From Anabaena sphaerica FACHB-251 (GTDB taxonomy: Bacteria; Cyanobacteriota; Cyanobacteriia; Cyanobacteriales; Nostocaceae), in the NCBI RefSeq assembly GCF_014696825.1, contig NZ_JACJQU010000011.1, positions 1-64,000 on the forward strand: DNA of 64,000 nucleotides, written 5' to 3'. The notes beneath the pieces were generated by a model. The model searched no databases, was not told the origin of the DNA, and saw only the letters and a list, made by a program, of their open reading frames with translations. Positions 2,989-61,732 of this stretch are shown here, piece by piece (the stretch's first letter is position 1; every line of letters starts with the position of its first letter). A program made the position numbers and the translations under genes.

Positions 2989-4695
2989 CTAAAACAAAAA
3001 GTATCTTTGTGCCATTGGTAAAACTGTTGCTGGTTCACAGGTTAATAACTCTCCATCTGCGCGAACTTCATAGGTTTCTGGGTCTACTTCAATATGAGGT
3101 AAAGTATCATTTAATTTCATATCCTGTTTAGTAATTTGACGAGTTCCAGAAACAGCAACAGCTGATTTTTTCAAACCTAACTGTTGGGGAATTTCTCTTT
3201 CTAAACTTGCTTGAGAAACAAACGTTAATGATGTTGCGTGACGCGCACCGGCAAAACTGCCAAACATGGGACGGGAATGTACAGGCTGAGGTGTGGGTAT
3301 ACTAGCATTAGCATCACCCATTTGTGACCAAGCAATCATTCCCCCTTTAATGACTATTTCTGGTTTTACGCCAAAAAATGCAGGTTGCCATAAACACAAA
3401 TCTGCTAGTTTCCCTGCTTCCACAGACCCCACATATTGAGAAATACCATGTGTAATTGCTGGGTTAATTGTGTACTTAGCAACGTATCTTTTCGCCCGTA
3501 AATTGTCTGCATTGCTATCACCAGCAAGACTTCCGCGTTGTACCTTCATTTTATGTGATGTCTGCCAAGTACGAATTATGACTTCACCTACACGCCCCAT
3601 TGCTTGGGAATCGGAAGCAATCATACTAAACGCGCCTAAATCGTGCAGAATATCTTCAGCAGCGATGGTTTCTCGACGAATGCGAGACTCAGCAAAAGCG
3701 ACATCTTCGGGAATTGCAGGATCTAGGTGATGACATACCATCAACATATCTAAATGTTCATCTAGGGTGTTGAGGGTGTAGGGACGAGTGGGGTTAGTGG
3801 AAGATGGTAAAACGTTGGTTTGTCCACAGACTTTGATGATATCGGGTGCGTGTCCTCCTCCTGCGCCTTCGGTGTGGTAGGTGTGAATGGCACGATGTTT
3901 AAAAGCAGCAATGGTATCTTCCACAAATCCTGCTTCGTTCAAAGTATCAGTGTGAATTGCTACTTGTACATCATATTCATCAGCAACGGTGAGACAGGTG
4001 TCAATGGTTGCGGGAGTAGTTCCCCAGTCTTCATGGAGTTTTAAGCCTATTGCACCTGCTTGGATTTGTTCTATTAGTCCTTGGGGTTGACTGGTGTTAC
4101 CTTTGCCTAAAAAGCCGATATTGACGGGGAAAGCGTCGGCTGCTTGCAGCATTCGGTACATATTCCAAGGGCCGGGAGTGCAGGTGGTGGCGTTTGTACC
4201 TGTTGCTGGGCCTGTTCCTCCACCGATCATGGTAGTAATTCCAGATGCGATCGCTACTTCAATTTGTTGAGGACAGATAAAATGGATGTGGGTATCTATT
4301 CCCCCCGCAGTCAAAATCATTCCCTCACCGGCTAAAGCTTCGGTTCCAGGTCCAATAATGATATCTATGTTGTCTTGAATATAGGGATTTCCGGCTTTAC
4401 CAATTTTGTAAATTTTGCCGTTTTTGATGCCGATATCGGCTTTCACAATACCCCACCAATCGAGAATCAAAGCATTAGTAATTACTAAATCTACTGCACC
4501 ATCAGCATTAGAAATTGGAGATTGTCCCATCCCATCCCTGATGACTTTTCCTCCACCAAATTTCACTTCGTCGCCGTAGGTTGTAAAGTCTTGTTCAACT
4601 TCAATAAATAATTCTGTGTCAGCTAGTCTGATGCGATCGCCTACTGTTGGTCCATAGGTTTGGGCGTAGGCTTGGCGGTTCATTCTGTAGGGCAT
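2989..4695 (-). CDS. ureC: Urease subunit alpha
   Basis: This is the catalytic subunit of urease, which hydrolyses urea to ammonia and carbamate at a dinuclear nickel centre in the cytoplasm. The 568-residue length is normal. The metal ligands are all visible: H136 and H138 in THIHFICP, the carbamylated lysine K219 in [10 protein letters not shown]248, and H274 in [15 protein letters not shown]. The mobile-flap Cys-His pair is present in MVCHHLDP, and the aspartate ligand in [11 protein letters not shown]. It is the fourth urease gene of a minus-strand operon (ureD, ureA, two inserted genes, ureB, ureC). The accessory genes ureE, ureF and ureG are not in the window. The 51-base gap to ureB contains a short repeat of the form cgcagaggcgcagag. 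Confidence 0.97.
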
Positions 4696-4746
4696 ATTTT
4701 TATCCTTTTTTGTATCACGCAGAGGCGCAGAGGCGCAGAGAGAAGT

Positions 4747-5052
4747 TTAGAGTTTTCCGTTTATTTTGTTGTTGAATCCGTAGATTTGGCGGCTACCGAC
4801 TAGGGGAATAAGGGTGATTTCTTTTTCGTCTCCTGGTTCAAATCTGACTGCTGTTCCTGCGGGAATATCTAATCTCATTCCTCGCGCTTTTTCTCTGTCA
4901 AAATCTAGGGCGTTGTTGACTTCGTAAAAGTGAAAGTGTGAACCAACTTGAATTGGTCTGTCTCCGGTGTTTGCTACTATTAATTGGGTGGTGGGACGAT
5001 TTGCATTGAGTTCGATTTCACCAAGTGGTGTGATTATTTCGCCTGGTATCAT
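4747..5052 (-). CDS. ureB: Urease subunit beta
   Basis: This small structural subunit of urease begins [16 protein letters not shown] and has the conserved [18 protein letters not shown] motif. Its 101-residue length is normal for the separate bacterial beta subunit. It assembles with UreA and UreC into the trimer of trimers. It lies directly upstream of ureC, but is separated from ureA by two foreign-looking genes (5071-6935), whereas ureA and ureB are usually adjacent. Confidence 0.96.
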
Positions 5053-5745: not shown

Positions 5746-6935
5746 GGAAGTCTCTCTAGTTCATCGCTACGGTGTAATTGTTCTAATTCATCTGAACCAA
5801 AATCATTAAGCATATCAATTAAAACTGGAGAATTTCCAGGTTTAATAAATTTTGCTTCTCCTGTTTCTTTTCTGAGTACAGCAATTTGAGAAATATCAAA
5901 CTGAGTCAGAAAGTAAGAAGAGTGAGTCGCTAATAAAATTTGTGTCCGTTCAGATGCTTTTTCAAATAAACCAGCTAGAACCGGAAGTGTACGGGGATGT
6001 ACACCTTGATCTGGTTCATCAATACAAATTAAAGATGGTGGATTTGGTTGTACACATAAACAAATCCAACAAATTAACCGTAAAATTCCATCTGATAAGT
6101 CAGCTAAACTTAATTCTTGATTAACTCCTGATTCTTGCCAAAAAGCGATGACTTCTCCAGGTCCACCACGTGCTTTTACTGTTAAACCTTTAAACCCAGG
6201 AATGACAGAACGTAAATGTTGTTGTAGTTCATCAAATGCTGTTCTATGTTCAGTCATTAAAGAAAAGAGAACCGAACTTAAATTACCTGCATCTTCATGT
6301 AAAATAGGTTCTTGTTCCAGGGGAACTGATTTACGAATTTTATCATTTGCTATGTTGAAGGAACTATAAAATCTCCAATCACGAATATATTCACGTAAGT
6401 TATATAATGCTTCTAGTGATGGATTTGTCATTGCACTCAAGGTTAGTTGATTATGACGTTTTAAAGCAATATCTTGTTGTATGGCTGGTTTGATTTTGAC
6501 TTGTGTAAATCCTGTTTCTCCAGGTTCTCGAATCACACCTTTATTACCTCGAATATCCATATATATGTATGGATTAGGGTATATATCACTAAAAGGTTGA
6601 GATGATTCTACCCGTTCATAGGAAACTTGAGTTCGACCAACCGGACCCATCAGTTCCCCTAAATATCTAATACCAACTGGACGACCTGTATCAATTTCAA
6701 TATTCCATTGGAATTTTTCTGGTCCTGGAATATGAAAAATCTGTTGACCAATAGAACCAGGAACTATTTCAGGAGGTATATCTTGATAAAGACTATCTCG
6801 CAAAAATTTGAGAAATTCAAACAAACTTGATTTACCAGCACCATTAGCACCAACAATAATTTCTAGCGGTTCTAACTGTGCTGCAAAATTCCTGAAAGGT
6901 CGATAACCTTGAATATTGATGGATTTTAATCTCAT
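5742..6935 (-). CDS. AAA-family (ABC/SMC-like) ATPase of an ATPase-TOPRIM pair
   Basis: This 397-residue ATPase begins MRLKSINIQGYRPFRNF, the standard opening of OLD/RecF-like AAA ATPases. Walker A is GANGAGKSS (residues 29-37). A signature-like LADLSDGILRLI precedes Walker B, LICIDEPDQGVHP, and a D-loop/His-switch region, LLATHSSYFL. No nuclease domain is fused to it. The TOPRIM partner is the next gene, overlapping by 4 bases. The pair occupies 5071-6935 between ureA and ureB in the same orientation as the operon, so it should be transcribed with urease. Similar two-gene arrangements occur in phage-defence modules, but a defence role here is only a hypothesis. Confidence 0.85.
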   Translation of the reverse strand: MRLKSINIQGYRPFRNFAAQLEPLEIIVGANGAGKSSLFEFLKFLRDSLYQDIPPEIVPGSIGQQIFHIPGPEKFQWNIEIDTGRPVGIRYLGELMGPVGRTQVSYERVESSQPFSDIYPNPYIYMDIRGNKGVIREPGETGFTQVKIKPAIQQDIALKRHNQLTLSAMTNPSLEALYNLREYIRDWRFYSSFNIANDKIRKSVPLEQEPILHEDAGNLSSVLFSLMTEHRTAFDELQQHLRSVIPGFKGLTVKARGGPGEVIAFWQESGVNQELSLADLSDGILRLICWICLCVQPNPPSLICIDEPDQGVHPRTLPVLAGLFEKASERTQILLATHSSYFLTQFDISQIAVLRKETGEAKFIKPGNSPVLIDMLNDFGSDELEQLHRSDELERLP

Positions 6936-14756: not shown

Positions 14757-15797
14757 ATGCAACGCCCATACACAGCGATTTTAATTGTACCTACTGGCAT
14801 TGGAGCAGCCATTGGCGGTTATGCCGGTGACGCATTACCAGCAGCTAGAGTTATATCACAGGTGTGCGATCGCTTGATCACTCATCCCAACGTCCTCAAC
14901 GGTGCAAGTTTATACTGGAATATCCCCAACGCCTTTTATGTGGAAGGATATGGTTTGGATAAATTTGCGGCTGGTGAATGGGGTTTACGTCCTGTCCATA
15001 GTAACCGCGTTGGTTTACTTTTAGACCAGGGAATTGAACCAGAATTAATGCTGAGACACCTGCAAGCCGCAGATGCAGCCAGAGCCACATTAGGATTAAA
15101 TCTTACCAATCATGTAATTACAGATGCTCCATTAAACGTAGAATTACGCATATCTTCATCCGGCGCAAGTTGGGGAACTATTGGCAACCCAGATAGTTTA
15201 TTACGGGCTGCGGAAATATTGATTAAAAAAGAGCAAGCAGAAGCGATCGCAGTTGTTGCCCGTTTCCCCGATAATATAGATAAAGAAGCAACGCAAAATT
15301 ACCGTCATGGTAAAGGCGTAGACCCCCTAGCAGGCGCAGAAGCCGTAATTAGCCATTTATTAGTGCGAACCTTTCAAATTCCTTGCGCCCATGCTCCCGC
15401 CCTTGCACCAGCACCCCCAGAACCAGACTTATCCCCCCGTTCCGCCGCCGAAGAATTAGGTTATACTTTTTTACCATGTGTTCTTGTCGGCTTGAGCCGC
15501 GCTCCCCAGTTTATTGTCAACAGAGAATTTATCAATTCTTTACAAGCAGATATTTGGGCAGATCAAGTTGATGCTGTTATAGCACCAGCAAACGCTTGTG
15601 GGAGCAGCACCTTACTCAGTTTAAGCCAGAAGCAATGCCAGATCATTACAGTTACAGAAAATAAAACATTAATACAAGTTTCCGCGCCAGCGTTAGGAAT
15701 CAAATCTATACAAGTAAACTCATATTTAGAGGTAGTAGGTGTTTTAGTCGCTCACAAAGCAGGTATTAATCCTTGGTCATTAGTCATTAGTCATTAG
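14757..15797 (+). CDS. DUF3326 family protein
   Basis: The start is ATG 14757 (MQRPYTAILIVPTGIGAAIG). The 33 codons in front of it are repeat DNA (tgcctttgctcctttgcgcc) and are excluded. The 346-residue protein matches the cyanobacterial/plastid DUF3326 family, for instance in the PTGIGAAIGGYAGDALPAAR and GASLYWNIPNAFYVEGYGLD segments. Its function is unknown. The C-terminus runs into a TCATTAG heptamer array: the last residues, WSLVISH, and the stop codon are supplied by the repeat. Confidence 0.85.
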   Translation: MQRPYTAILIVPTGIGAAIGGYAGDALPAARVISQVCDRLITHPNVLNGASLYWNIPNAFYVEGYGLDKFAAGEWGLRPVHSNRVGLLLDQGIEPELMLRHLQAADAARATLGLNLTNHVITDAPLNVELRISSSGASWGTIGNPDSLLRAAEILIKKEQAEAIAVVARFPDNIDKEATQNYRHGKGVDPLAGAEAVISHLLVRTFQIPCAHAPALAPAPPEPDLSPRSAAEELGYTFLPCVLVGLSRAPQFIVNREFINSLQADIWADQVDAVIAPANACGSSTLLSLSQKQCQIITVTENKTLIQVSAPALGIKSIQVNSYLEVVGVLVAHKAGINPWSLVISH

Positions 15798-15902
15798 TCA
15801 TTAGTCATTAGTCATTAGTCATTAATTATTCTCCCCTGCTCCCCTGCTCCCCTGCTCCCCTGCTCCTCTGCTCCCCTGCTCCCCTGCTCCCCTGCTCCCC
15901 TA
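15777..15902. repeat. TCATTAG heptamer array followed by a CTCCCCTG octamer array
   Basis: Heptamer TCATTAG runs from 15777 to about 15824 (nearly seven units). It provides the end of the upstream gene. An octamer CTCCCCTG array of about eight units follows at about 15831-15902. These are short tandemly repeated repetitive sequences of the type known in Nostocales. Confidence 0.92.
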
Positions 15903-16510: not shown

Positions 16511-16620
16511 CAGGTGACAGGTGACAGGTGACAGGTGACAGGTGACAGGTGACAGTAAAGATGGGGAGGTGGGGAGAAATAAATATTTACCTCCTGCCTT
16601 CTGCCTTCTGCCTTCTGCCT
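16511..16620. repeat. AGGTGAC and CTGCCTT heptamer arrays
   Basis: About six AGGTGAC units lie at 16511-16555, directly after the protease stop. About four CTGCCTT units lie at about 16592-16620. The reverse complement of the first heptamer (GTCACCT) recurs at 19458-19512 and 36968-36990. Confidence 0.9.
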
Positions 16621-19332: not shown

Positions 19333-19515
19333 ATTAGGGAACAGGGAACAGGGAATAGGGATGAGGGATTAGGGAATAAAGAATAGGGAATAGGGAATAG
19401 GGAATAGGGAATAGGGATTAGGGAACAGGGAACATGGGAAGTGGGGAGAATAACCTTCTACCTGTCACCTGTCACCTGTCACCTGTCACCTGTCACCTGT
19501 CACCTGTCACCTCTT
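19333..19515. repeat. GGGAATA and CACCTGT heptamer arrays
   Basis: GGGAATA/GGGAACA-type heptamers run from about 19333 to 19435. CACCTGT heptamers follow at about 19458-19512 (roughly seven units). They lie immediately upstream of dedA on its strand. Confidence 0.9.
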
Positions 19516-24962: not shown

Positions 24963-25015
24963 AGGGACTGGGGACTGGGTATTGGGTATTGGGGACTGGG
25001 GACTGGGGAGAACAT
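24963..25015. repeat. GGGGACT-type heptamer array
   Basis: Units of ggggact/gggtatt type with a 7-base period fill about 24963-25015 between the membrane protein gene and the tRNA. The same heptamer recurs at 36896-36945, and in reverse complement inside the TamB gene (about 52780-52808). Confidence 0.85.
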
Positions 25016-25879: not shown

Positions 25880-26437
25880 ATGGGAACTGCTCTAGCAGAG
25901 GTAAATACTCTAGTTATTACTCCAGATGGTAAAACATTGATTAGTGGAAGTAGCGATAACACTATTAAAATCTGGAATTTACAAACTGGAGAATTACAAT
26001 GCACTTTTACCCAACATTCAACAGCAGTGTTATCTATAGCTATTCACCTAGATGGTAAAACTATTGCTAGTAGTAGCAAAGACGGAATTATCAAACTTTG
26101 GAATTTGCAAACTGGGGAAATTTTAGAAACTCTTTCTGGTATGAGTCCTATAACATTTTCACCTGATGGAAAAATTCTTGTTAGTGGTGGTGATGGTAGA
26201 ATAATCAAAATTTGGCAACAGCTAGAAAACAGCGAATATTTAACTTTAACTGGGGAATGGTGGGAAATATTAGGAGTTGATAAAAATACTCATCCTCAAG
26301 ATGTAAAACTTGCCTATCGACAATTGGCTAGATTATATCATCCTGATATTAACACAACGGCTACTGCTAAAGCTGCAATGCAAGCAGTTAATCAAGCTTA
26401 TCAACATTTTCAGATGCTTGTTAATGTTAAAAAATAA
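25880..26437 (+). CDS. WD40 repeats fused to a C-terminal J domain
   Basis: This 185-residue protein has about two and a half WD40 repeats (residues 5-112, for example LISGSSDNTIKIWNLQTGEL). They are followed by a J domain (about 126-180) with WWEILGVDKNTHPQDVKLAY and the essential HPD tripeptide (154-156). The J domain should stimulate an Hsp70/DnaK ATPase. A WD40 propeller needs about seven blades, so this looks like the C-terminal part of a longer protein whose 5' end is lost. The DNA just upstream contains an AGGACTTACGCA half-repeat. It may be a remnant or a small adaptor working with other blades. Confidence 0.7.
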   Translation: MGTALAEVNTLVITPDGKTLISGSSDNTIKIWNLQTGELQCTFTQHSTAVLSIAIHLDGKTIASSSKDGIIKLWNLQTGEILETLSGMSPITFSPDGKILVSGGDGRIIKIWQQLENSEYLTLTGEWWEILGVDKNTHPQDVKLAYRQLARLYHPDINTTATAKAAMQAVNQAYQHFQMLVNVKK

Positions 26438-27285: not shown

Positions 27286-28734
27286 ATGCAACTAAATGAA
27301 TTAAGCACAAGTGAAAATATAGAAAAAGAGGCATGGCAGGCATTAGAGAATTCAATTCTTTACTATAAAGGTCGTCCCATTGGGACTTTAGCCGCCTATG
27401 ATCCATCTGTAGAATCTCTGAATTATGACCAGTGTTTCGTTAGAGATTTTGTTTCTTCTGCACTGATTTTTCTGATTAAAGGTAGAACAGATATTGTTCG
27501 TAATTTCCTAGAAGAAACGTTAAAGTTACAGCCTAAAGAAAGAGCATTAGACGCATATAAACCAGGACGAGGATTGATACCAGCCAGCTTCAAAGTTGTC
27601 TCTGTCAATGGGGAAGAACATTTAGAAGCTGATTTTGGAGAACACGCGATCGCTAGAGTCACACCAGTTGATTCTTGTTTATGGTGGCTAATTTTATTAC
27701 GTGCTTATGTAATTGCTACAAATGATTATGCTCTAGCTTATCAACCTGAATTCCAAACAGGTATCAGGTTAATCATGGAAATCTGTTTGGCTAATCGTTT
27801 TGATATGTATCCAACCTTGTTAGTTCCCGATGGAGCTTGCATGATTGACCGACGTATGGGTATATATGGCCATCCTCTCGAAATTCAAGTTCTATTTTTT
27901 GCTGCATTGCGTGTAGCGCGTGAGCTACTAATTTGTCAAGGTAATCAAGATATTGTGGAAGCAATTGATAATAGATTACCCTTGTTATGTGGTCATATTC
28001 GTAAACATTATTGGATAGATATTTCTCGGTTGAATGCAATTTACCGATTCAAGAGTGAAGAATATGGGAAAGCGGCCGTGAATCTATTTAACATTTATGT
28101 AGATTCTCTGCCTTATTATGAATTAGATAAATGGCTACCCAGAAAAGGTGGTTATTTAGCAGGTAATGTTGGACCATCCCAGTTAGATACTCGTTTCTTT
28201 TCCCTCGGAAATTTAATGGCTATTATTTCCGATCTTTCTACAGAAGAACAATCTCAAGCGATTATGACTTTGATTGAAGAAAGATGGGATGATTTAGTGG
28301 GAGATATGCCCATGAAAATCTGTTTCCCGGCTTTAGAAAATGAAGAATACAGAGTTGTGACAGGATGCGATCCTAAAAACATACCTTGGTCTTATCATAA
28401 TGCCGGAAGTTGGCCAGTTTTAATGTGGATGTTAGCCGTAGCAGCAATGAAAACCAATAAAACTGGTATGGCCAGAAGAGCGATGGAAATAGCTAGAGCG
28501 CGTTTAAGTGAAGATGAATGGCCAGAATATTACGATGGTAAAAAAGGAAGACTAATTGGCAAACAAGCGAGGAAATATCAAACCTGGACTATCGCAGGAT
28601 ATTTATTAGCGAAAGAACTCATGGATAACCCCAATTTCTTGCCATTAGTTAGTTTTGATAAATTACCTCCAGAAACGGTTTCTAGAGCTTGTGAATTTGA
28701 AGTGGGCAGTATACAGCCTTATATGTCTCTATAA
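27286..28734 (+). CDS. Alkaline/neutral invertase (GH100)
   Basis: This 482-residue enzyme should split sucrose to glucose and fructose in the cytoplasm. It aligns by eye with GH100 invertases of cyanobacteria and plants. The catalytic acid region is [20 protein letters not shown], with Asp at position 188. The second catalytic residue is Glu414 in EWPEYYDG. These positions coincide with the Asp188/Glu414 numbering I recall for Anabaena InvA, so this copy should be active. It is the first of two tandem paralogues, separated by 373 bases. In heterocystous strains such enzymes serve sucrose breakdown in heterocysts or vegetative cells. Confidence 0.93.
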
Positions 28735-29107: not shown

Positions 29108-30523
29108 ATGAAAGAAGAAGAAAAATCAATAGTAAATACTCTAGAAAACCAGGCTTGGGAACTTCTAGAAAAATCAGTAACTTATTATAAAGGTAATCCT
29201 ATAGGAACAATAACTGTTTGTGATCAAACACAAGCTATATTAAATTTCGATCATTGCTTTATTCGTGATTTTGTGCCATCAGCTTTACTTTTTCTGATCA
29301 AAGGTAGATATGATATTGTACGTAACTTTCTCGAAGAGACGTTAAAATTACAACCAAAAAAAAGCCAATTTAATGCTTATACACCAAGTAAAGGTTTGAT
29401 ACCAGCCAGTTTTCAAGTTGTATCAATAGATGGAGAAGAATCCTTAGAAGCGGATTTTGGTGAACAAGGTATAGCTAGAGTTACACCTGTTGATTCTTGT
29501 CTGTGGTGGATTATTATCTTACACGCTTATGTGAAAGCGACAAAAGATGTAAAATTTGCCATGCAGCCTCAATTTCAGCAAGGCATTATGTTAATAATGG
29601 AACTTTGTTTAGCGACTCGGTTTGATATGAACCCAACGCTATTAGTTCCTGATGGTGCTTGTATGATTTACCGTCGGATGGGTATTTATGGCTATCCTTT
29701 AGAAATTCAATCTTTATTTTATGCCGCTTTACGTGCAGCACGTAAATTATTAATTTGTGCAGGTGATGAAGAGATTGTTACAGCTATTGAGAATCGCTTA
29801 CCTTTATTAAGAGATCATATTCGTCATCATTATTGGATAGATATGAAACGCCTCAATGTTATCTATCGTTTTAAAAGTGAAGAATATGGACATACAGCAG
29901 TAAACCAATTCAATGTCTATGCAGATTCAATTCCCTATGCTGATTTATCTGTTTGGTTGCCAAAACATGGTGGTTATCTAGCCGGAAATGTTGGACCTTC
30001 TCAATTAGATACTCGTTTCTTTTCTCTGGGAAATTTAATGGCTATTATTTGTTCTCTCACTAATGAACGTCAGTCCCAAGCAATTATGAATTTAATTGAA
30101 GAACAATGGGATGATTTAGTGGGAAAAATGCCTATGAAAATCTGTTTTCCGGCTTTATCAAAATCTGAATATAAAATTTTTACCGGTTGTGACCCTAAAA
30201 ATACACCTTGGTCATATCATAATGGTGGTAATTGGCCAGTTTTGTTGTGGGTTTTAACTGCTGCCGCTCAAAAAACAGGTAGAACTGATCTGAGTGAACG
30301 TGCTGTGGAAATTGCTCAAGCAAGGCTGAGTCAAGATGAATGGCCAGAATATTACGATGGTGCGCGTGGGTCATTAATTGGTAAAGAAGCGAGGAGATAT
30401 CAAACTTGGACAATTACAGGTTTTTTATTAGCAAAAGAATTAATGCGAAATCCTGCTTATTTAGAGTTAATTAATTTTGGAGAATCTGATATTGAGAAGG
30501 ATGAACGATTTTGTGATGTATAG
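29108..30523 (+). CDS. GH100 invertase paralogue with Tyr replacing catalytic Asp188
   Basis: This 471-residue protein aligns without gaps to the preceding invertase for at least the first 420 residues, so it is a tandem paralogue. The catalytic Glu414 (EWPEYYDG) is kept. In the other catalytic motif the sequence is PDGACMIYRRMGIYGYPLEI, with a TAC tyrosine codon at position 188 where the first copy and the family have Asp. A single G-to-T change explains it. Loss of that acid should abolish or greatly lower hydrolysis. The rest of the fold is well conserved, which argues for a kept function (binding, regulation or altered chemistry) rather than decay. It has its own likely promoter. Confidence 0.9.
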   Translation: MKEEEKSIVNTLENQAWELLEKSVTYYKGNPIGTITVCDQTQAILNFDHCFIRDFVPSALLFLIKGRYDIVRNFLEETLKLQPKKSQFNAYTPSKGLIPASFQVVSIDGEESLEADFGEQGIARVTPVDSCLWWIIILHAYVKATKDVKFAMQPQFQQGIMLIMELCLATRFDMNPTLLVPDGACMIYRRMGIYGYPLEIQSLFYAALRAARKLLICAGDEEIVTAIENRLPLLRDHIRHHYWIDMKRLNVIYRFKSEEYGHTAVNQFNVYADSIPYADLSVWLPKHGGYLAGNVGPSQLDTRFFSLGNLMAIICSLTNERQSQAIMNLIEEQWDDLVGKMPMKICFPALSKSEYKIFTGCDPKNTPWSYHNGGNWPVLLWVLTAAAQKTGRTDLSERAVEIAQARLSQDEWPEYYDGARGSLIGKEARRYQTWTITGFLLAKELMRNPAYLELINFGESDIEKDERFCDV

Positions 30524-30565: not shown

Positions 30566-31771
30566 CTAAAGGTTGGAAGATATCAAGCATTGGCGGAAAT
30601 TATGATGATAAAGGCGATAAACCGTAACATCAGTGATAGTTTCTACCTGTAAAAACTCAAACCAAGATTCTAAAATTTCCTCTACATCAAATTCATCACA
30701 ATCTAGGAAATTGGCAATATCTGCAACAGAGATAGGTTGTGTTTTCTCTGCTAAAACTTTCAAAATTGCTAGAGCAAAATCTTCATCTGTCGAGTCCAGC
30801 ATTTTTTGTAAATGCTGTTGGTAATAAGATTCTAAACCAGGTGATAGAGAGGTTTCTAACTGGGAAGGTTCGGTATAGAAACCGTCAGCAATAGCAGCTA
30901 AAACTTGACTCACGTACATGAAATTATTTTCGCTGCGGTTGGTTAAGTTAGAAATAAATTCTGCTTCATTTATTTGGTGGGTATTTAACCAAGATTTGAT
31001 AATAGACCTCTCCCCCAACCCCTATCCTGCGAGGAAAGGGGAGTTAGATAATTCTTGTTCCCCCATTCCCTTGTAGGGAAGGGGGGTTAGGGGGGTTAGG
31101 TTTTTTATAATATAAGCTTGAATATCTTGTTTATTTTCCTCTGGATAATCTGCTAAATTCAAACTTTGCACCGGTGCTTCAATTAATAAACCGGAATTAC
31201 TTGATAAAAACGGACGACGGGAAAGGAGAAAATACACCCCTTGGGGAAGGTAGCGGGGAAGATAAAAAATATTTGTTCCTGGTGGTTGTAAATTGCGGTT
31301 GATGCAGTTTAACCCGTCAATGACAATAATTAATTTTTGATTTGGTTGTAAACTGTCGCTGATTTGTTGGAGAAGCAAGGATAAAAACCAACTCCCTTCT
31401 GTTGCGTTATCTGGTAAATTTGGCAGGGATATATTTTGAAAGTTGGCGATAATTTGAGAACATACATAAGTTAAAAATTCCGCAGCGTGATTTTTACCCT
31501 CTAACTCCGCGTTGTAATAAATAACATGAGGATTTTCCTGAATATATTTAGCAATAATCGCACCTTTACCGCTACCCGGTGCGCCGATAATCGTAAAATA
31601 ACCCCGGTTATAGCGGTGGAGAAAATTATTAATAGCAGTAAACACGAAATCACGACCGATAAAATTCGCGCTTTTGGTGTTAATAACTTCCGTGAATTGT
31701 TGCTGAGTATCCAGGTAATTATTAACCGTTGGTGGTCTGGGTGTGGAGTTCATAAATTCACTCTCCCGCAT
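30566..31771 (-). pseudogene. STAND-type NTPase interrupted by a 102-bp repeat insertion
   Basis: The N-terminal part (31022-31771) has Walker A IIGAPGSGKGAIIAKY, a Walker B-like KLIIVIDGLNCI, and the sensor-like YFLLSRRPFL. The C-terminal part (30566-31018) reads SIIKSWLNTHQINEAEFISN and the winged-helix region typical of cyanobacterial STAND ATPases. The two parts are in the same frame. Between them sits a C/G-rich repeat flanked by an ATAATA duplication that brings a TAG stop at 31022. Removing the element and one duplication gives continuous IQAYIIKSWLN. The upstream WD40 gene overlaps the first ATG by 14 bases. MNSTPRP (31753) is a better-placed start behind GGGAGAG. Only a truncated NTPase is made unless the stop is bypassed. 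Confidence 0.8.
31005..31106. mobile_element. Miniature repeat element inserted in the NTPase gene
   Basis: A 102-bp C/G-rich element with internal hairpins is flanked by the direct repeat ATAATA at 30999-31004 and 31107-31112. It belongs to the same family as the intergenic repeats at 14215, 50383 and 57964. Element plus one duplication is 108 bp, a multiple of three, so the reading frame is kept, but an in-frame TAG lies within it. No transposase is encoded. It would have been moved in trans. Confidence 0.8.
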
Positions 31772-34016
31772 TTTCCAACTTTAAAAAATGCACCATCCCC
31801 GAAGCGTCACCCGCAACAATTGTTAACTTATCTGTGAATTTATTGGGGGGTGCAACTGCACAGGAATAGATAGAACTGTCACCTGTGAAAGTAGCTATAA
31901 TTTCCCCCGTCTCTAAATTCCACACCTTCACAGTATTGTCTAAAGAACCAGAAATCACCCGTTTAGAGTCGGTTGTGACTGCGACTGCGTATACCGAATC
32001 ACTGTGACCTCTCAGGGTTAATTGTTCCTCCCCTGTCTCTAAATTCCACACCTTCACAGTTTCATCAGATGAACCAGAAATTACCCGTTGAGAGTCGGCT
32101 GTGACTGCGACTGCTGATACCAAATCACTGTGACCTGTAAAGGTGAACTGTTCCTCTCCTGTCCCTAAATTCCACACCTTCACAGTTTCATCAGATGAAC
32201 CAGAAATCACCCATTTAGAGTCGGCTGTGACTGCGACTGCTGATACCCCACCGCTATGACCTTTGAGGGTGAACTGTTCCTCTCCTGTCTCTAAATTCCA
32301 CACCTTGACAGTTTCGTCAGATGAACCAGAAATTACCCGTTGAGAGTCGGCTGTGACTGCGACTGCGTATACCGAATCACTGTGACCTCTCAGGGTAAAC
32401 TGTTCCTCCCCTGTCTCTAAATTCCACACCTTGACAGTTTCGTCATATAAACCAGAAATCACCCGTTGAGAGTCGGCTGTGACTGCGACTGCTAATACCG
32501 AATCACTATCACCTCTCAGGGTGAACTGTTCCTCTCCTGTCTCTAAATTCCACACCTTGACAGTTTCGTCATATGAACCAGAAATCACCCGTTTAGAGTC
32601 GGTTGTGACTGCGACTGCGTATACCGAATCACTATGACCTTTCACGGTGAACTCTTTCTCCCCTGTCTCTAAATTCCACACCTTGACAGTTTTGTCACCG
32701 GAACCAGAAATCATCCGTTTGCCGTCGGTTGTGACTGCGACTGCTAATACCGAACTACTATGACCTTTCACGGTGAACTCTTTCTCCCCTGTCTCTAAAT
32801 TCCACACCTTGACAGTTTTGTCACCGGAACCAGAAATCATCCGTTTGCCGTCGGTTGTGACTGCGACTGCTAATACCGAACGACCATGACCTCTCAAGGT
32901 TAACTGTACCACCCCTGTCTCTAAATTCCACACCTTGACAGTATTGTCATATGAACCAGAAATCACCCGTTTAGAGTCGGCTGTGACTGCGACTGCTAAT
33001 ACCCAACTACTATGACCTTTGAGGGTGAACTGTACCACCCCTGTCTCTAAATTCCACACCTTCACAGTTTCGTCCCAAGATGCAGAAATCACTCGTTTAG
33101 AGTCAGCTGTGACTGCAACTGCTCTTACCCCACCGCTATGACCTCTCAGGGTGAATTGTTCCTCCCCTGTCTCTAAATTCCACACCTTCACAGTATTGTC
33201 AGATGAACCAGAAATCACCCGTTTAGAGTCGACTGTGACTGCAACTGCTCTTACCCCACCGCTATGACCTCTCAGGGTGAATTGTTCCTCCCCTGTCTCT
33301 AAATTCCACACCTTCACAGTATTGTCAGATGAACCAGAAATCACCCGTTTAGAGTCGACTGTGACTGCGACTGCTCTTACCCCACCGCTATGACCTCTCA
33401 GGGTGAACTGTTCCTCCCCCGTCTCTAAATTCCACACCTTGACAGTATTGTCTTCTGAACCAGAAATTACCCGTTTTCCGTCGGCTGTGACTGCGACTGC
33501 GTTTACCCAACTACTATGACCTGAGAGGGTGCGGAGTAACCTTCCTCCTGGTGGTGTGAGACTGGGGGTGAGGGTACGCAACCAAGGGTGAGTTTGAGTT
33601 TGTGATATTTGTTGTAATAGTTGTTGAATTTCTGTGGTGTGGATAGCTTGTAACCTTCCCCATAATTGACTAGGTAATTGTTGTTTATCCTGGGTGACAA
33701 TATGTGCCGACAGTCGCAGCGCACTTTGAATATATTTTAAGGTTTCGGTTTGGTCTGGGTGGTTTTGGGTTTGGTTATCATCTAGTAAATCATAATCTTC
33801 TATTAATGCCTGAATTCCAAATTCGGGATGATTAATTTTGGCGGATATGAATTTATAATCTGTGAGAGTTTGGTAATATTCAGCTAAATTTTCTGGTTTT
33901 CTTAAGACTGAGTTTGCCAAAGAATAAGGCAAACTCAAGTAAATTTTAAGAGCGAATTTATCCATAGATAAACCTTGTTTACCTGCTTCTTGGTTGAGAA
34001 ATTCTTGCCAAGTCAT
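31758..34016 (-). CDS. WD40 protein with 13 nearly identical repeats and an N-terminal helical domain
   Basis: Residues 1-160 are helical and resemble the linker that joins STAND ATPases to WD40 propellers (ALIEDYDLL, LSAHIVTQDKQQLPSQLWGR). From residue 161, thirteen 42-residue WD40 repeats of the type HSGGVRAVAVTVDSKRVISG follow, encoded by a 126-base unit, with a diverged fourteenth at the end. That is enough for two seven-bladed propellers. Repeats 2 and 3 are identical in protein. Differences cluster at the positions after the GH dipeptide and around SGSxDxT, on the expected binding face. The NTPase that normally precedes these domains is encoded by the next gene, overlapping by 14 bases. 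A role as sensor of a split STAND system is inferred. Confidence 0.88.
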   Translation of the reverse strand: MTWQEFLNQEAGKQGLSMDKFALKIYLSLPYSLANSVLRKPENLAEYYQTLTDYKFISAKINHPEFGIQALIEDYDLLDDNQTQNHPDQTETLKYIQSALRLSAHIVTQDKQQLPSQLWGRLQAIHTTEIQQLLQQISQTQTHPWLRTLTPSLTPPGGRLLRTLSGHSSWVNAVAVTADGKRVISGSEDNTVKVWNLETGEEQFTLRGHSGGVRAVAVTVDSKRVISGSSDNTVKVWNLETGEEQFTLRGHSGGVRAVAVTVDSKRVISGSSDNTVKVWNLETGEEQFTLRGHSGGVRAVAVTADSKRVISASWDETVKVWNLETGVVQFTLKGHSSWVLAVAVTADSKRVISGSYDNTVKVWNLETGVVQLTLRGHGRSVLAVAVTTDGKRMISGSGDKTVKVWNLETGEKEFTVKGHSSSVLAVAVTTDGKRMISGSGDKTVKVWNLETGEKEFTVKGHSDSVYAVAVTTDSKRVISGSYDETVKVWNLETGEEQFTLRGDSDSVLAVAVTADSQRVISGLYDETVKVWNLETGEEQFTLRGHSDSVYAVAVTADSQRVISGSSDETVKVWNLETGEEQFTLKGHSGGVSAVAVTADSKWVISGSSDETVKVWNLGTGEEQFTFTGHSDLVSAVAVTADSQRVISGSSDETVKVWNLETGEEQLTLRGHSDSVYAVAVTTDSKRVISGSLDNTVKVWNLETGEIIATFTGDSSIYSCAVAPPNKFTDKLTIVAGDASGMVHFLKLENAGE

Positions 34017-36468: not shown

Positions 36469-36891
36469 ATGGTTAATCATTCCCATGTTAAAAACTTAGT
36501 TAAAATCCTGATTGGAGCAGCTTGGATTGATGGTAGAATCCAGCCGGAAGAAAGACAATATCTGCGGGAAATAGCTCAAGCTAAAGGTTTGGCTAGTGAT
36601 CCAGAGATTAAGCCATGGCTGTATGAATTAGTACCAGTCAAACCAAGTCAATGTTACGAATGGGTGAGAGAGTATTTAGGCGATCGCCCCAGCTTAGAAG
36701 ATTGCGAAAATCTCATTGAAGCTATTAGTGGATTGATTTACAGCGACGGTGAAGTTGCCATTGAAGAAGCTAAACTTCTAACCACATTGCAAGAGTTAAG
36801 TAAATCCCATGATACCACCCAACCAATTTATACCCCACTGCTAAAACAAATTAAAAAGCTTTACCGTCGCTGGGTGGATGTGCAGAATTAG
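36469..36891 (+). CDS. TerB-like protein
   Basis: This 140-residue, all-helical protein has paired acidic motifs typical of TerB/DjlA-like folds: GAAWIDGRIQPEERQYL near the start, and GLIYSDGEVAIEEAKLL in the second half. TerB domains bind metal and take part in tellurite-type stress modules, but solitary cyanobacterial copies have no known job. A good ribosome site (gaggaggcagc) precedes the ATG. It may be co-transcribed with rsmB. Confidence 0.8.
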   Translation: MVNHSHVKNLVKILIGAAWIDGRIQPEERQYLREIAQAKGLASDPEIKPWLYELVPVKPSQCYEWVREYLGDRPSLEDCENLIEAISGLIYSDGEVAIEEAKLLTTLQELSKSHDTTQPIYTPLLKQIKKLYRRWVDVQN

Positions 36892-36895
36892 GGGA

Positions 36896-36990
36896 TTGGG
36901 GAGATGGGGACTGGGGACTGGGGACTGGGAACTGGGGACTGGGAAAAATCTTTTCTCTTTCCTCTTCACTGTCACCTGTCACCTGTCACC
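36896..36990. repeat. GGGGACT and CACCTGT heptamer arrays
   Basis: Heptamers of the ggggact type run at about 36896-36945, and CACCTGT units at about 36968-36990, in the short gap between convergent genes. Confidence 0.88.
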
Positions 36991-47007: not shown

Positions 47008-50000
47008 ATGGCGACGCTGTGGAAGTTGTTGACAAGAAATATTTATCTTCGGGATTTGAACTGGGGACAAGGGGTAGAGGTAGTAAAAACTGGCTCAGAA
47101 GCCGCCAAAGCTGTGTTAGACCTGGCAAAAGCTGTCAATGAGCAAAAATCGAAGTTATCCGACCTCAAGCCATATGCAGAACAAATATCCTCGCTTCTAG
47201 ATGTCCTCAATGGTCCACTTGTTCAGGTTGCAGGTGCAGTCATTCCCTTTGCACCCATCGCGCTGACGATGATTAAATTAATTATTGATCAGACCAACAA
47301 AGAGTTAAATTTAGAACAGTGTGTGGCATTAGTTAGCCAAGCTGCTTATTTAGAAAGTTTTCAGGAACTTGTCAGAGAACAGCCAGAATTAATAGAGAAA
47401 TTAAATTTAAATAAATCTCCCGCTTCTGATGCAGTTGCACAGAAGATTAAAAAATTGGGTGAACAGGAATTAGATGAACGGGACGCGAAAAAAGCCATAG
47501 TTTATTTCCATGAATCCAAATTAGCGGCATCATTCAATGAAGTTTTACAACAACGTTTACAAGAAGCAGGTTTAGAAGCAGAAAAAGCAGAAATTTTAAC
47601 TGAACAAGTAGCACGAAAAACCGATGAATATCTGTTCTCAGAACTGGTAAAAACTGGGGATAAAGTTAAGCAGTTAGTAGAATGGTATAGCGTCGGGGGG
47701 AAAGAACAACTAGAGAAATATTTGAGTATAGAAGATTATTTAGAACAGCAAATTAAACCCAAACCAGAAGAAAAGATTTTTGACGAAAAAGAAATTACCT
47801 TCCGGGATTTGTATGTTCCTCTGCAAGTGCGTCCAGTAGATGATAATGGTAAACCTGTTGGGGATGAAAAGCTGCAAATAGAGGAATGGGTGATAAAAAT
47901 GCTAACTGACTCGGATAAACAACAGAAAGTTTTGTTTATTCAAGGTGAAGCCGGCAGGGGAAAGAGTGTTTTTAGTCGGATGTTTGCTGATAGGGTGCGG
48001 CGAGAATTACACCCCAGTTTTACGCCGATTTTAATTCGCTTGCGGGATTTACGGGTGTTAGGGGATAATCTGACTGAAACTTTGAAAAAGCATTTAGAAA
48101 CAGTTGATTTTGTTCAAAGTGATTCTGGTTGGTTGACGGATAAAAATACTCAATTTTTATTTTTGCTGGATGGATTTGATGAACTTTTGTTAGAAAGAAG
48201 AGAAAGCAGAGAAGCGCAAGAAGTTTTACAGCAAGTAGAGAGTTTTCAAAATAATAGCCATCATCGGTTTTTGGTGACAGGTCGCCCTTTAGCATTGCAA
48301 AACATTGAGCGTTTGATTACACAAACCAAATGCTTAACAAGAGTCGAACTTCAGCCGATGGATGATGAAATTAGGGAAACATGGCTGAATAAATGGGAAG
48401 CTAAATTTGGTAATCAGGAAACAACTGAATTTAAAGAATTTTTAGAATCTTGTCCTGAAGAAATTCAAGAGACACTAGCACGAGAGCCTTTACTACTTTA
48501 TCTCTTAGCAAGAATGCACCGGGAAAAACATTTTAATGCTCAGATGTTTGCAGGTGCAGAAGGAATTAAAGCCAAAATTCGCATTTATGATGAGTCAATT
48601 AAATGGGTTTTAGAAAAACAGCGTCAGGACGAAAACCTACGTTTGGCTGGACTAGAAAGCGAAGATTTGCGAGAGTTTTTAACTGAGGTGGCTTTGTGTG
48701 TGGTGCAGTCTGGTAATGAATCTGCCAATATCAAAATGTTAGAGGCAAGAATTAAAGACAATCAACCCATTGCCAATTTACTTCAGCAAGCCAGAAAGGA
48801 GATACCCTACGAAAAGCTGACAGAACAGAAAACATTAAATAACCTAGTAACAGCTTTTTACATTAAACCTGCTTCTGGGAAAGAAGGCGGTTCAATGGAG
48901 TTTGTTCACAAAAGCTTTGGCGAATTTTTATTTGCAGAACGATTGGTAAACAGTTTTTGTGATTGGACAGATCAAGTTACCAAGCGTAACCGTCAAGAAG
49001 ACTCAGTTTCAACAGATGTGATGGATAAACAAATTTATGATTTGTTGGGTTATGGAAATTTAACGCCGGAAATTGTTGAATATTTGATGGGGTTGTTAGC
49101 TGAAAGATCAGAATTTAATGCTAAATGCTATGTAAAACTGTTCCAAAGATTGGAGGAATTTTACCTGCGTTGGTGCGATGGAGAATTTATTGATGCACCT
49201 CCAGAAACAGAAATCTTGCCTCTGTTTAAGAAAGAGCAGTTGAAGAAGCTATTACCAGAGCGAGAAAAACATTTGGGACTGCGACAGGTGGATGTGTACA
49301 CGGGACTGAATGTGTTGATTTTGCTGTTGGAGTTGCATCGTTACGCTAAATTTAATGATGACTTGAAAGATGACATCAATTTTCATCCTTGTGGTCAGCC
49401 TAATACAGAGGGGTTTGATGACGAATGCTTACTTCGCATAATTGGCTATAGTCAGTGCTTAGGTGCTGACACCTTTAACAAAAATCTGGGATTTTTCCTC
49501 AGCCATGCGAACCTTAGCGGTGTCAACCTTGATGGTGCCGACCTCTACAAAGTCAATCTCAGTCAAGCTGATCTCAGCAATGCTAAACTTAAGGGTGTCG
49601 ATCTCCAATCAGCTTTGCTATACGGTGTTAATCTCACCGGAGCGTACCTTAACGGTGCTGACCTTTATAATGTTAACCTCAACGAAGCTGACCTTACAGA
49701 AGCTGATCTCATGGGTACTAGTTTAACCGAAGCTGATCTCATGGGGACGATCCTCAATGATGCCAGCCTCAACGGTGCCGACCTTAATGATGCCAACCTT
49801 ATCGGTGCGAAGCTTTTTGGTACTATTCTTGAAGCAATTCAATGGAACAATAATACAAGATGGGTAAACGCTTTGTGGCTGCATGAAGCTTTAAACGTTC
49901 CCTCAGAGTTGGCACAACAACCATTGTTTTCAGCTGCGGTGGCGTTAAGTGAGGGGATGAGTTTGGTAGGAGAAGGTAAGTTTGCAGAGGCTATTCAAGC

Positions 50001-50364
50001 TTACAATCAGGCTTTAAGCATAGACCCTAATTTACAGATTTCCGCCGAATCTTGGAATATTCTAGGTTGGTTTGGTACTCTTCATGGTGATCCTGCTGAT
50101 GTAATTTATGCCTGTGAAAATGCAGTTGCCTCAGAACCAGAAGATAAAATATGGCAAGATAGTCGAGGACTGGCTAGGGCATTAACAGGTAATTTAACTG
50201 GAGCATTAACAGACTTTCAATCAGCAGTAGATAGCAATGCGCTTGATTACTCAGAAGTTGATAAACAGCGCCGACTGCGTTGGATAGAAGCACTCAAAGC
50301 AGGTCTAAATCCTTTTACTCCAGAGGAATTGGAGGAAGTGCGAAAGGCTGAGGGGATGTTTTAA
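47008..50364 (+). CDS. NACHT NTPase with pentapeptide repeats and C-terminal TPR
   Basis: This intact 1118-residue STAND protein has, in order, a helical N-terminal domain (about 20-290, VEVVKTGSEAAKAVLDLAKA onward) and a NACHT NTPase with Walker A IQGEAGRGKSVFSRMF (about 311-325). Walker B is QFLFLLDGFDELL (about 380-392), followed by the arginine-sensor region FLVTGRPL and the FVHKSFGEFLFAERLV motif that closes the NACHT module. A pentapeptide-repeat solenoid follows (about 833-943, units like ANLSG/VNLDG/ADLYK) and then TPRs (AEAIQAYNQALSIDPN). Bacterial NACHT proteins act as intracellular sensors, and several protect against phage. The solenoid would be the sensor or scaffold part here. 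The N-terminal effector is unknown to me. Single gene, no partner. Confidence 0.9.
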   Translation: MATLWKLLTRNIYLRDLNWGQGVEVVKTGSEAAKAVLDLAKAVNEQKSKLSDLKPYAEQISSLLDVLNGPLVQVAGAVIPFAPIALTMIKLIIDQTNKELNLEQCVALVSQAAYLESFQELVREQPELIEKLNLNKSPASDAVAQKIKKLGEQELDERDAKKAIVYFHESKLAASFNEVLQQRLQEAGLEAEKAEILTEQVARKTDEYLFSELVKTGDKVKQLVEWYSVGGKEQLEKYLSIEDYLEQQIKPKPEEKIFDEKEITFRDLYVPLQVRPVDDNGKPVGDEKLQIEEWVIKMLTDSDKQQKVLFIQGEAGRGKSVFSRMFADRVRRELHPSFTPILIRLRDLRVLGDNLTETLKKHLETVDFVQSDSGWLTDKNTQFLFLLDGFDELLLERRESREAQEVLQQVESFQNNSHHRFLVTGRPLALQNIERLITQTKCLTRVELQPMDDEIRETWLNKWEAKFGNQETTEFKEFLESCPEEIQETLAREPLLLYLLARMHREKHFNAQMFAGAEGIKAKIRIYDESIKWVLEKQRQDENLRLAGLESEDLREFLTEVALCVVQSGNESANIKMLEARIKDNQPIANLLQQARKEIPYEKLTEQKTLNNLVTAFYIKPASGKEGGSMEFVHKSFGEFLFAERLVNSFCDWTDQVTKRNRQEDSVSTDVMDKQIYDLLGYGNLTPEIVEYLMGLLAERSEFNAKCYVKLFQRLEEFYLRWCDGEFIDAPPETEILPLFKKEQLKKLLPEREKHLGLRQVDVYTGLNVLILLLELHRYAKFNDDLKDDINFHPCGQPNTEGFDDECLLRIIGYSQCLGADTFNKNLGFFLSHANLSGVNLDGADLYKVNLSQADLSNAKLKGVDLQSALLYGVNLTGAYLNGADLYNVNLNEADLTEADLMGTSLTEADLMGTILNDASLNGADLNDANLIGAKLFGTILEAIQWNNNTRWVNALWLHEALNVPSELAQQPLFSAAVALSEGMSLVGEGKFAEAIQAYNQALSIDPNLQISAESWNILGWFGTLHGDPADVIYACENAVASEPEDKIWQDSRGLARALTGNLTGALTDFQSAVDSNALDYSEVDKQRRLRWIEALKAGLNPFTPEELEEVRKAEGMF

Positions 50365-61459: not shown

Positions 61460-61732
61460 AGATGGGGAATGGGGAAGGGGTGCAGGGGTGCAGAGGTGCA
61501 GAGGTGCAGGGGTGCAGGGGAGAAATTTATTCTCCTGACTTTTGTAGAGACGTTCCGCCTTTTGTAGAGACGTTCCGCCTTTTGTAGAGACATTCCGCCT
61601 TTTGTAGAGACGTTCCGCCTTTTGTAGAGACGTTCCGCCTTTTGTAGAGACGTTCCGCCTTTTGTAGAGACGTTCCGCCTTTTGTAGAGACGTTCCGCCT
61701 TTTGTAGAGACGTTCCGCCGGAACGTCTCTAC
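61460..61732. repeat. GGGGTGCA octamers and nine 20-bp repeats ending in a palindrome
   Basis: Bases about 61475-61520 are GGGGTGCA/GAGGTGCA octamers. From 61541 to 61720 the 20-mer TTTGTAGAGACGTTCCGCCT is repeated nine times (the third has CATTCC, and the ninth ends in G). The last copy is closed by GGAACGTCTCTAC to 61732, recreating the palindrome at 12753-12781. The array abuts the stop codon of the REC-reductase gene. Confidence 0.95.

Follow-up and report, generated by a model that had tools for sequence, protein, structure and literature searches.

A highly repetitive WD40 protein of Anabaena sphaerica as the probable sensor of a split STAND receptor resembling Apaf-1

The stretch of DNA analyzed here (the window) comprises the first 64,000 nucleotides of contig NZ_JACJQU010000011.1 of the cyanobacterium Anabaena sphaerica FACHB-251. 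On its minus strand, it carries a gene, referred to below as W (31758..34016), an intact open reading frame (ORF) whose 752-aa product consists of a short leader, a helical domain similar to the APAF1_C domain of Pfam, and 14 WD40 blades. W probably serves as the sensing component of a cyanobacterial STAND receptor that is Apaf-1-like but split, with its ATPases encoded by two separate genes, A and B, on either side of W. In the relatives of W, the gene neighbors and the domain content are conserved, the WD40 arrays change in length, the same few codons stand out as variable, and in two loci W and B are fused.

The 13 WD40 units of W, each of 126 bp (42 aa), occupy positions 31884..33521 of the minus strand (residues 166-711), with the first unit starting at 33521, and are followed by a degenerate 14th blade (31761..31883, minus strand) that closes the array. 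An earlier note, made from the sequence alone, had given this unit, its 13 copies, and their position, all of which proved correct. Tandem-repeat finding (TRF) returned a period of 126, 12.9 copies, and 89% matches; the tandem array is real and far above chance. The description of its units as near-identical, made in the same note, fits units 2 and 3, which are indeed the same in protein and agree at 125 of 126 DNA positions, and units 6 and 7 (124 of 126), but does not extend to the array as a whole: pairwise identity among the 13 units is 74.6 to 99.2% in DNA (mean, 84.9%) and 64 to 100% in protein (mean, 77.9%). The two near-same pairs look like products of recent tandem duplication. The WD40 match of W in Pfam scores 436.6 bits over 13 stretches, and the Pfam matches listed for this protein (25 of 54) are all of the propeller type. 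No NTPase domain was detected in W, and its N-terminal domain had no NTPase match in Pfam, NCBIfam, or PADLOC. A blade number of 14 is the commonest in complete genes of the family, found in 15 of 50 (the window included), where the 50 are those of 90 W genes with both ends recognized. The full-length AlphaFold2 model of W has a mean pLDDT of 79 and a pTM of 0.48. Its best fits over residues 158-493 are 8-bladed folds, whereas the WRAP propeller, a cyanobacterial relative discussed below, is 7+7 in its crystal (PMC6805158; this and the other papers are cited here from excerpts of their published texts). By sequence, the top solved-structure match to W is 2ymu_A (E 4.5e-128).

The helical N-terminal domain (33525..33965, minus strand), here called the arm, resembles the APAF1_C (Apaf-1 HD2) type, as judged from its AlphaFold2 model and from fold and Pfam matches. 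Residues 1-164 are modeled as ten helices with a pLDDT of 78. VIA-align placed at the top Apaf-1 (1z6t_B, residues 462-586; Z 8.8; root-mean-square deviation [rmsd], 2.9; 120 residues aligned), with the runner-up at Z 6.8 and rmsd 6.5. Apaf-1 led only this second look; Foldseek with the arm model gave no match at E ≤ 0.001. The arm profile had no match among solved-structure sequences at E ≤ 10, and the arm itself (164 aa) had none in NCBIfam or PADLOC at E ≤ 0.1. In Pfam, APAF1_C (PF17908) matched 15 of 20 family members at E ≤ 1 (best E, 5e-7) and exceeded its gathering score in 2 of 10. A hidden Markov model (HMM) of the arm had no match in 20 further WD40 ORFs from the same genome, of which several were clipped at the edge of the fetched region. 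Four long proteins from three genomes (L152-L155, chosen for their long frames) consist of one chain, with the arm between an ATPase, which in our reading of its motifs would be NB-ARC, and the WD40 blades. The helical domain of Apaf-1 likewise lies between the nucleotide-binding ATPase and the WD40 blades. Taken together, the fold of the arm, the APAF1_C matches, and the layout of the four long proteins suggest that W corresponds to the sensing half of a protein like Apaf-1, made as a chain of its own.

The genes around W point in the same direction. An arm match at E ≤ 1e-25 was found in 116 of 388 genomes sampled from the order, and in relatives the gene order is fixed, A, W, B, on one strand. 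A lies directly upstream of W in 53 of 56 cyanobacterial loci; B lies downstream in 37 of the 43 loci with enough flank, and 36 of these 43 have both. The spacing between A and W is at most 10 bp, or the genes overlap, in 32 of 54 measured pairs; W lies as close to B in 17 of 43. Two loci, L131 (983 aa) and L151 (1309 aa), encode W and B as a single protein. The five A proteins scanned first all had NNH5 (PF22736) and AAA/NACHT-type matches; among five further ones, two had a helix-turn-helix (HTH) match over the cut-off, and the rest had no named N-terminal domain over it. No TIR match was seen in these ten A proteins, and a solved-structure search with one A protein gave nothing at E ≤ 0.01. 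The B proteins of relatives are shorter ATPases. Apart from A, W, and B, the ORF clusters on the same strand each recur in at most 6 of the 56 loci. One ORF cluster is present in 18 of them, on the opposite strand in 17 of the 18 and with a median start of 8760 (W starts near 6500); it may be Uma2-like. Seven cluster sequences (three A, two B, the arm of the window, and the first part of its B) were scanned with the WD40 array left out, and no defense system was named by NCBIfam or PADLOC. The best NCBIfam score was 27.9 bits for Avs1b against a cut-off of 1500; the best PADLOC match was also Avs1b, at E 1.2e-12 and covering about 234 of the 1924 positions in the model, with the others weaker and no cut-off printed by PADLOC. 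The genome of A. sphaerica itself carries a second cluster (L037), arranged in the order A, three W genes, one WD40 frame without a detected arm, and B.

Variation within the array is unevenly distributed. Codons are numbered here in each unit from the G of the GH motif. The earlier note had held the variation to be confined to binding-face positions; it is concentrated there but not confined, as 21 of the 42 amino-acid columns vary. The places that the note named as variable match the codons that rank highest by nonsynonymous difference when diversity is computed per site, namely, 7, 23, 5, 25, and 4, in this order. In the WD40 units of Podospora, four codons, 7, 9, 25, and 27, are reported to be strongly positively selected; they flank the conserved codons 8 and 26 and are placed on the top face of the propeller (Paoletti 2007; PMC1805685). 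The flanked codons map to V6 and D24 here, so that the four equivalents are 5, 7, 23, and 25, the top four of the window. In the AlphaFold2 model of W, codon 5 of unit 1 falls in the loop preceding strand 1, codon 7 lies close to where this strand begins, and codons 23 and 25 belong to the turn that joins strands 2 and 3. Change is concentrated at the predicted propeller face. The proportion of nonsynonymous differences (pN) in the window array is 0.538 at the four codons and 0.089 at the others, with a proportion of synonymous differences (pS) of 0.202 for the array, and only 4 of 100,000 random four-codon sets reached a pN of 0.538. By parsimony on the tree of the window units, there are 27 nonsynonymous and 3 synonymous changes at the four codons, compared with 43:37 elsewhere (Fisher P 2.4e-4). 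Against a neutral split, however, the ratio of 27:3 gives P = 0.11, so this array alone indicates where change is tolerated, not that change is favored. Selection was therefore tested family-wide.

The family test covered arrays with at least five full-length units and a mean DNA identity of at least 0.78, found in 44 of 90 nonredundant W genes, the window included. Since the four codons were taken from the Podospora paper after the ranking in the window had been seen, the 43 other arrays provide the independent test, although kinship leaves them partly nonindependent of each other. Combined pN at codons 5, 7, 23, and 25 exceeds that of the other codons in all 43 arrays and exceeds the pS of the array in 39; the median ratio of nonsynonymous to synonymous change (dN/dS) is 2.48 at the four codons versus 0.40 elsewhere. 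Tree-based ratios exceed 1 in 36 of the 43 arrays (medians, 1.81 at the four codons and 0.38 elsewhere). The pooled tree counts of nonsynonymous to synonymous changes are 750:135 for the four codons and 1477:1266 for the rest, and the former departs from a neutral split with a P of 3.9e-5, a value that is approximate because the synonymous-site fraction of the window, 0.205, was used for all. When counted per array and summed, 354 distinct four-residue combinations occur among 407 units. Thus, the diversifying selection proposed in the earlier note is probable for the family, as putative positive selection at codons 5, 7, 23, and 25, but is not supported by the window array alone. Two further repeat-rich WD40 genes of the same genome have other unit sequences and high pN at the same codons. 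One of them, L053 (3712-7905), encodes a 1397-aa protein with NNH5, NA-iREase1, and WD40 domains, in which NACHT is absent among the matching families listed (25 of 60); the other, L142 (1884-3548, contig C1), has a frame that ends at the contig end.

Concerted evolution, which the note had also proposed, is borne out. For 12 of the 13 window units, and for 423 of 624 units family-wide, the nearest DNA relative lies inside the same array, and array lengths differ among near relatives. Repeat number, compared at the level of species rather than strains, is 13, 9, 9, 7, 5, 1, and 1 in W and six near orthologs, each with a terminal blade in addition; the arms of these six are 70 to 78% identical to that of the window, and two of the arrays hold runs of undetermined bases (N). 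A seventh near ortholog, L059, ends at a contig edge and was left out of this comparison. At species level, the outcome thus favors the note in a check of repeat number that it had itself proposed for close strains. In L060 (4485-5159) and L061 (5573-6274), the WD40 array of W is down to a single unit and the terminal blade. That is too few for one propeller, but two-blade WRAP fragments assemble into oligomeric propellers in vitro (PMC6805158), and these two W proteins might still assemble. No close copies of the window units were found outside the array, and recent unit exchange with the second cluster of this genome, on contig C7, was rejected, as the matches there are partial and at most 90% identical.

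In A. sphaerica itself, both partner genes appear to be damaged. The first 17 codons of A (33966..34016, minus strand; 88% identity to residues 1-17 of the A protein of L078 by tblastn) are in frame with W, and blastn alignments of the DNA upstream of W with L077, L078, and L060 extend no farther than the 17th codon of A; beyond this point, L060 aligns again, though weakly (42 bp, 76%, E 0.003), from the start codon of W. From where these alignments stop, A appears to have been deleted here, with its 17 codons fused in frame to W. B is split in two. Its first part (31022..31771, minus strand), a P-loop, STAND/NACHT-like ATPase that overlaps the end of W by 14 bp, matches AAA_16 of Pfam at E 2.9e-7 with 31.6 bits, compared with a cut-off of 32.6, and ends at an in-frame stop. 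The C-terminal part (30566..31018, minus strand) continues in the same frame beyond the stop and has no Pfam match of its own. The first part is 51 to 69% identical to 11 B proteins of relatives. The stop is carried by an inserted repeat element of 99 bp (31005..31103, minus strand), 94 to 96% identical to two copies (4602-4700 and 4722-4820) in the paralog L038; of the 11 B proteins that were aligned with that of the window, 7 read through a related in-frame LTPLPY segment. Both the deletion and the stop could be assembly or base errors. With the local cluster degraded in this way, W would be either a relic in this strain or a partner of the paralogous cluster elsewhere in the genome.

These observations can be combined in the following scheme. 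An intact cluster would produce three proteins: A, with an NNH5, HTH, or unnamed N-terminal domain and a NACHT-type ATPase; W, with an Apaf-1-like arm and, most often, 14 WD40 blades; and B, the second, shorter ATPase. W may contact A and B through its arm and keep one or both inactive. A ligand (a phage protein, a self marker, and other molecules are candidates) would bind the hypervariable face of the propeller and release the ATPases, which would then oligomerize, with the N-terminal domain of A triggering a response, conceivably an immune or a self/nonself one. Recombination between the similar tandem units would alter blade number and reshuffle the contact residues, and selection would retain useful combinations, as in HET-D and HET-E.

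Several observations weigh against this reading. The cluster is broken in this strain and may have no function here. The APAF1_C match of window W is weak (E 0.018, below the cut-off), and, by the warning of VIA-align itself, a Z of 8.8 can reflect a common arrangement for helical domains. Of the 43 loci for which both flanks were tested, 7 lack A or B at its usual place; the neighbors of the 56 loci include no recognized effector gene; and co-transcription of A, W, and B is suggested by their spacing alone. Repeat counts may be wrong in short-read assemblies. As for the four codons, neutrality is not rejected by the window alone; their mean ranking over the 43 arrays is 23, 4, 5, 7, 42, 25, which places codons 4 and 42 above 25; and the top four codons of an array include all of the named four in just 1 of the 43 arrays, three of them in 15, two in 16, one in 7, and none in 4.

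Some of these points fit an explanation in which the propeller was recently amplified without being adaptively diversified: blades would be duplicated frequently, surface loops would be less constrained, high identity would signify youth, and the hot codons would reflect relaxed constraint. Propellers of this kind are reported to be amplified continuously and to decay fast (Pereira and Lupas 2022; PMC9218822), low dS has been taken as a sign of young age (Hu 2017; PMC5587647), and the hot codons of the window alone do not depart from neutrality. Relaxed constraint nevertheless agrees less well with hot codons that exceed the synonymous level of their own array in 39 of 43 cases, with tree ratios above 1 in 36, with the pooled excess of nonsynonymous changes (calculated with the synonymous-site fraction of the window), and with 354 combinations among 407 units; we regard this explanation as unlikely. 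The balance is much closer, indeed about even, for the view that the locus is a dismantled operon in this strain, whose array records past selection only. The reduction of A to 17 codons joined to W, the stop within the element inserted in B, and the many disrupted propellers of the WRAP branch (PMC9218822) agree with this view; on the other hand, W is intact at 752 aa and now uses the start codon and upstream region of A, and the second cluster, with its A and B, could supply partners.

Two further explanations concern the origin of the variation and the role of W. In multicellular bacteria, putative sensors belonging to NACHT and ternary systems are diversified by diversity-generating retroelements, or DGRs (PMC10907252), and the genome has three RVT_1 matches, so the array could in principle be a DGR target. 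However, none of the three matches lies within the window, and codon 5 (TGG, GGG, TCG, TTG) changes at more than one base; moreover, the 25 DNA matches to unit 2 are all accounted for by this array (13) and the C7 cluster (12), which leaves no template repeat. With neither a template repeat nor a reverse transcriptase match in the window, this very improbable explanation was rejected. Less probable still is a role of W as a housekeeping scaffold for the neighboring genes, of which a Glyco_hydro_100 invertase gene and an rRNA methyltransferase (RsmB/F) gene adjoin it: outside A, W, and B, none of the same-strand ORF clusters is shared by more than 6 of the 56 loci, in a comparison that included no search for these two families by name, and linkage on the other strand is conceivable.

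Other features of the window are listed here as observations in their own right. Beside W, on the plus strand, lie tandem genes for Glyco_hydro_100 alkaline/neutral invertases (27286-28734 and 29108-30523). An ORF of 185 aa (25880-26437, plus strand) combines three WD40 stretches with a DnaJ domain and seems to be either a remnant or a small, unusual fusion. An NLR-like protein with the domain architecture NNH3-NACHT-pentapeptide repeats-TPR is encoded at 47008-50364 (plus strand). There are also many short tandem arrays of 7-bp units (15765-15824, 16511-16555, 19335-19432, 19460-19512, 24964-25009, and 36891-36943) and about nine copies of a 20-bp unit at 61539-61719.

If W is indeed such a sensor subunit, multicellular cyanobacteria might possess a three-part, split counterpart of Apaf-1 and NLR proteins, in which two different NACHT-type ATPases share a single free WD40 wheel that is primed for recombination and whose contact residues diversify where those of fungi do for allorecognition. 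It is conceivable, as a more tentative proposal, that a fast-evolving self/nonself or phage repertoire arose in this way independently in bacteria. The HET genes of fungi are the classic case of repeat shuffling combined with selection at the binding face; now that dozens of bacterial arrays show elevated diversity at the same four codons, the existence of recognition repertoires of the fungal type in bacteria becomes testable, and the location of the sensor and the ATPases in separate genes makes the parts easy to assay individually in laboratory strains. In the open-license literature, no publication turned up that describes genes arranged as A-W-B or these four shared hot codons in bacteria.

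Comparison with known systems places W among the highly repetitive WD40 proteins, defined as having at least 6 of 8 contiguous repeats with all pairwise identities at least 0.7 (Hu 2017; PMC5587647); the value for W is 0.762. In the excerpted text of that paper, NACHT has 0 occurrences and site-specific diversity is not described. The Podospora HNWD proteins (HET-D, HET-E, and HET-R) have similar WD40 units, change in length, and have the same four hot codons (PMC1805685, PMC12222747), and the likeness to HET-E and HET-D NLR proteins suggested in the earlier note holds to this extent. It does not extend to architecture: the HNWD proteins are fungal and carry NACHT and WD40 in one chain, whereas W is not a one-chain NLR, and its ATPases are separate genes, both damaged here. 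Units are exchanged between members of the HNWD gene family, whereas the units of the window are only weakly matched in the second cluster. HNWD WD40 units are more than 80% identical within a gene (PMC12222747), and the window array does not fit this description throughout, as its DNA mean lies above this value but its DNA range extends below, and its protein mean is 77.9%.

Apaf-1 and the NB-ARC-WH-APAF1_C-WD40 proteins, which exist in cyanobacteria and algae (PMC8891106), resemble W in having a helical arm followed by WD40 blades. APAF1_C preceding the blades is also found in the W family, with the match of the window itself below the cut-off. In proteins of the Apaf-1 type, the nucleotide-binding domain is part of the same chain, whereas here the arm and the propeller are encoded by a gene of their own, flanked by two genes for NACHT-type ATPases. 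Closest in kind is WRAP (Npun_R6612 of Nostoc punctiforme; PDB 2YMU), a recently amplified, 14-bladed propeller in a STAND protein, whose gene is coupled to a TIR-STAND gene, has disrupted relatives, and has been proposed to play a role in innate immunity (PMC9218822, PMC6805158); repeat-rich propellers in cyanobacterial STAND operons are thus already known. Like W, WRAP is a cyanobacterial, highly repetitive WD40 protein with 14 blades, two linked STAND ATPase domains, and disrupted relatives. Unlike W, which is a separate protein with an APAF1_C-like arm, WRAP carries its STAND ATPase and propeller in one chain, and the ATPase coupled to it has a TIR domain, whereas the first ATPase of the A-W-B cluster has an NNH5, HTH, or unnamed N-terminal domain.

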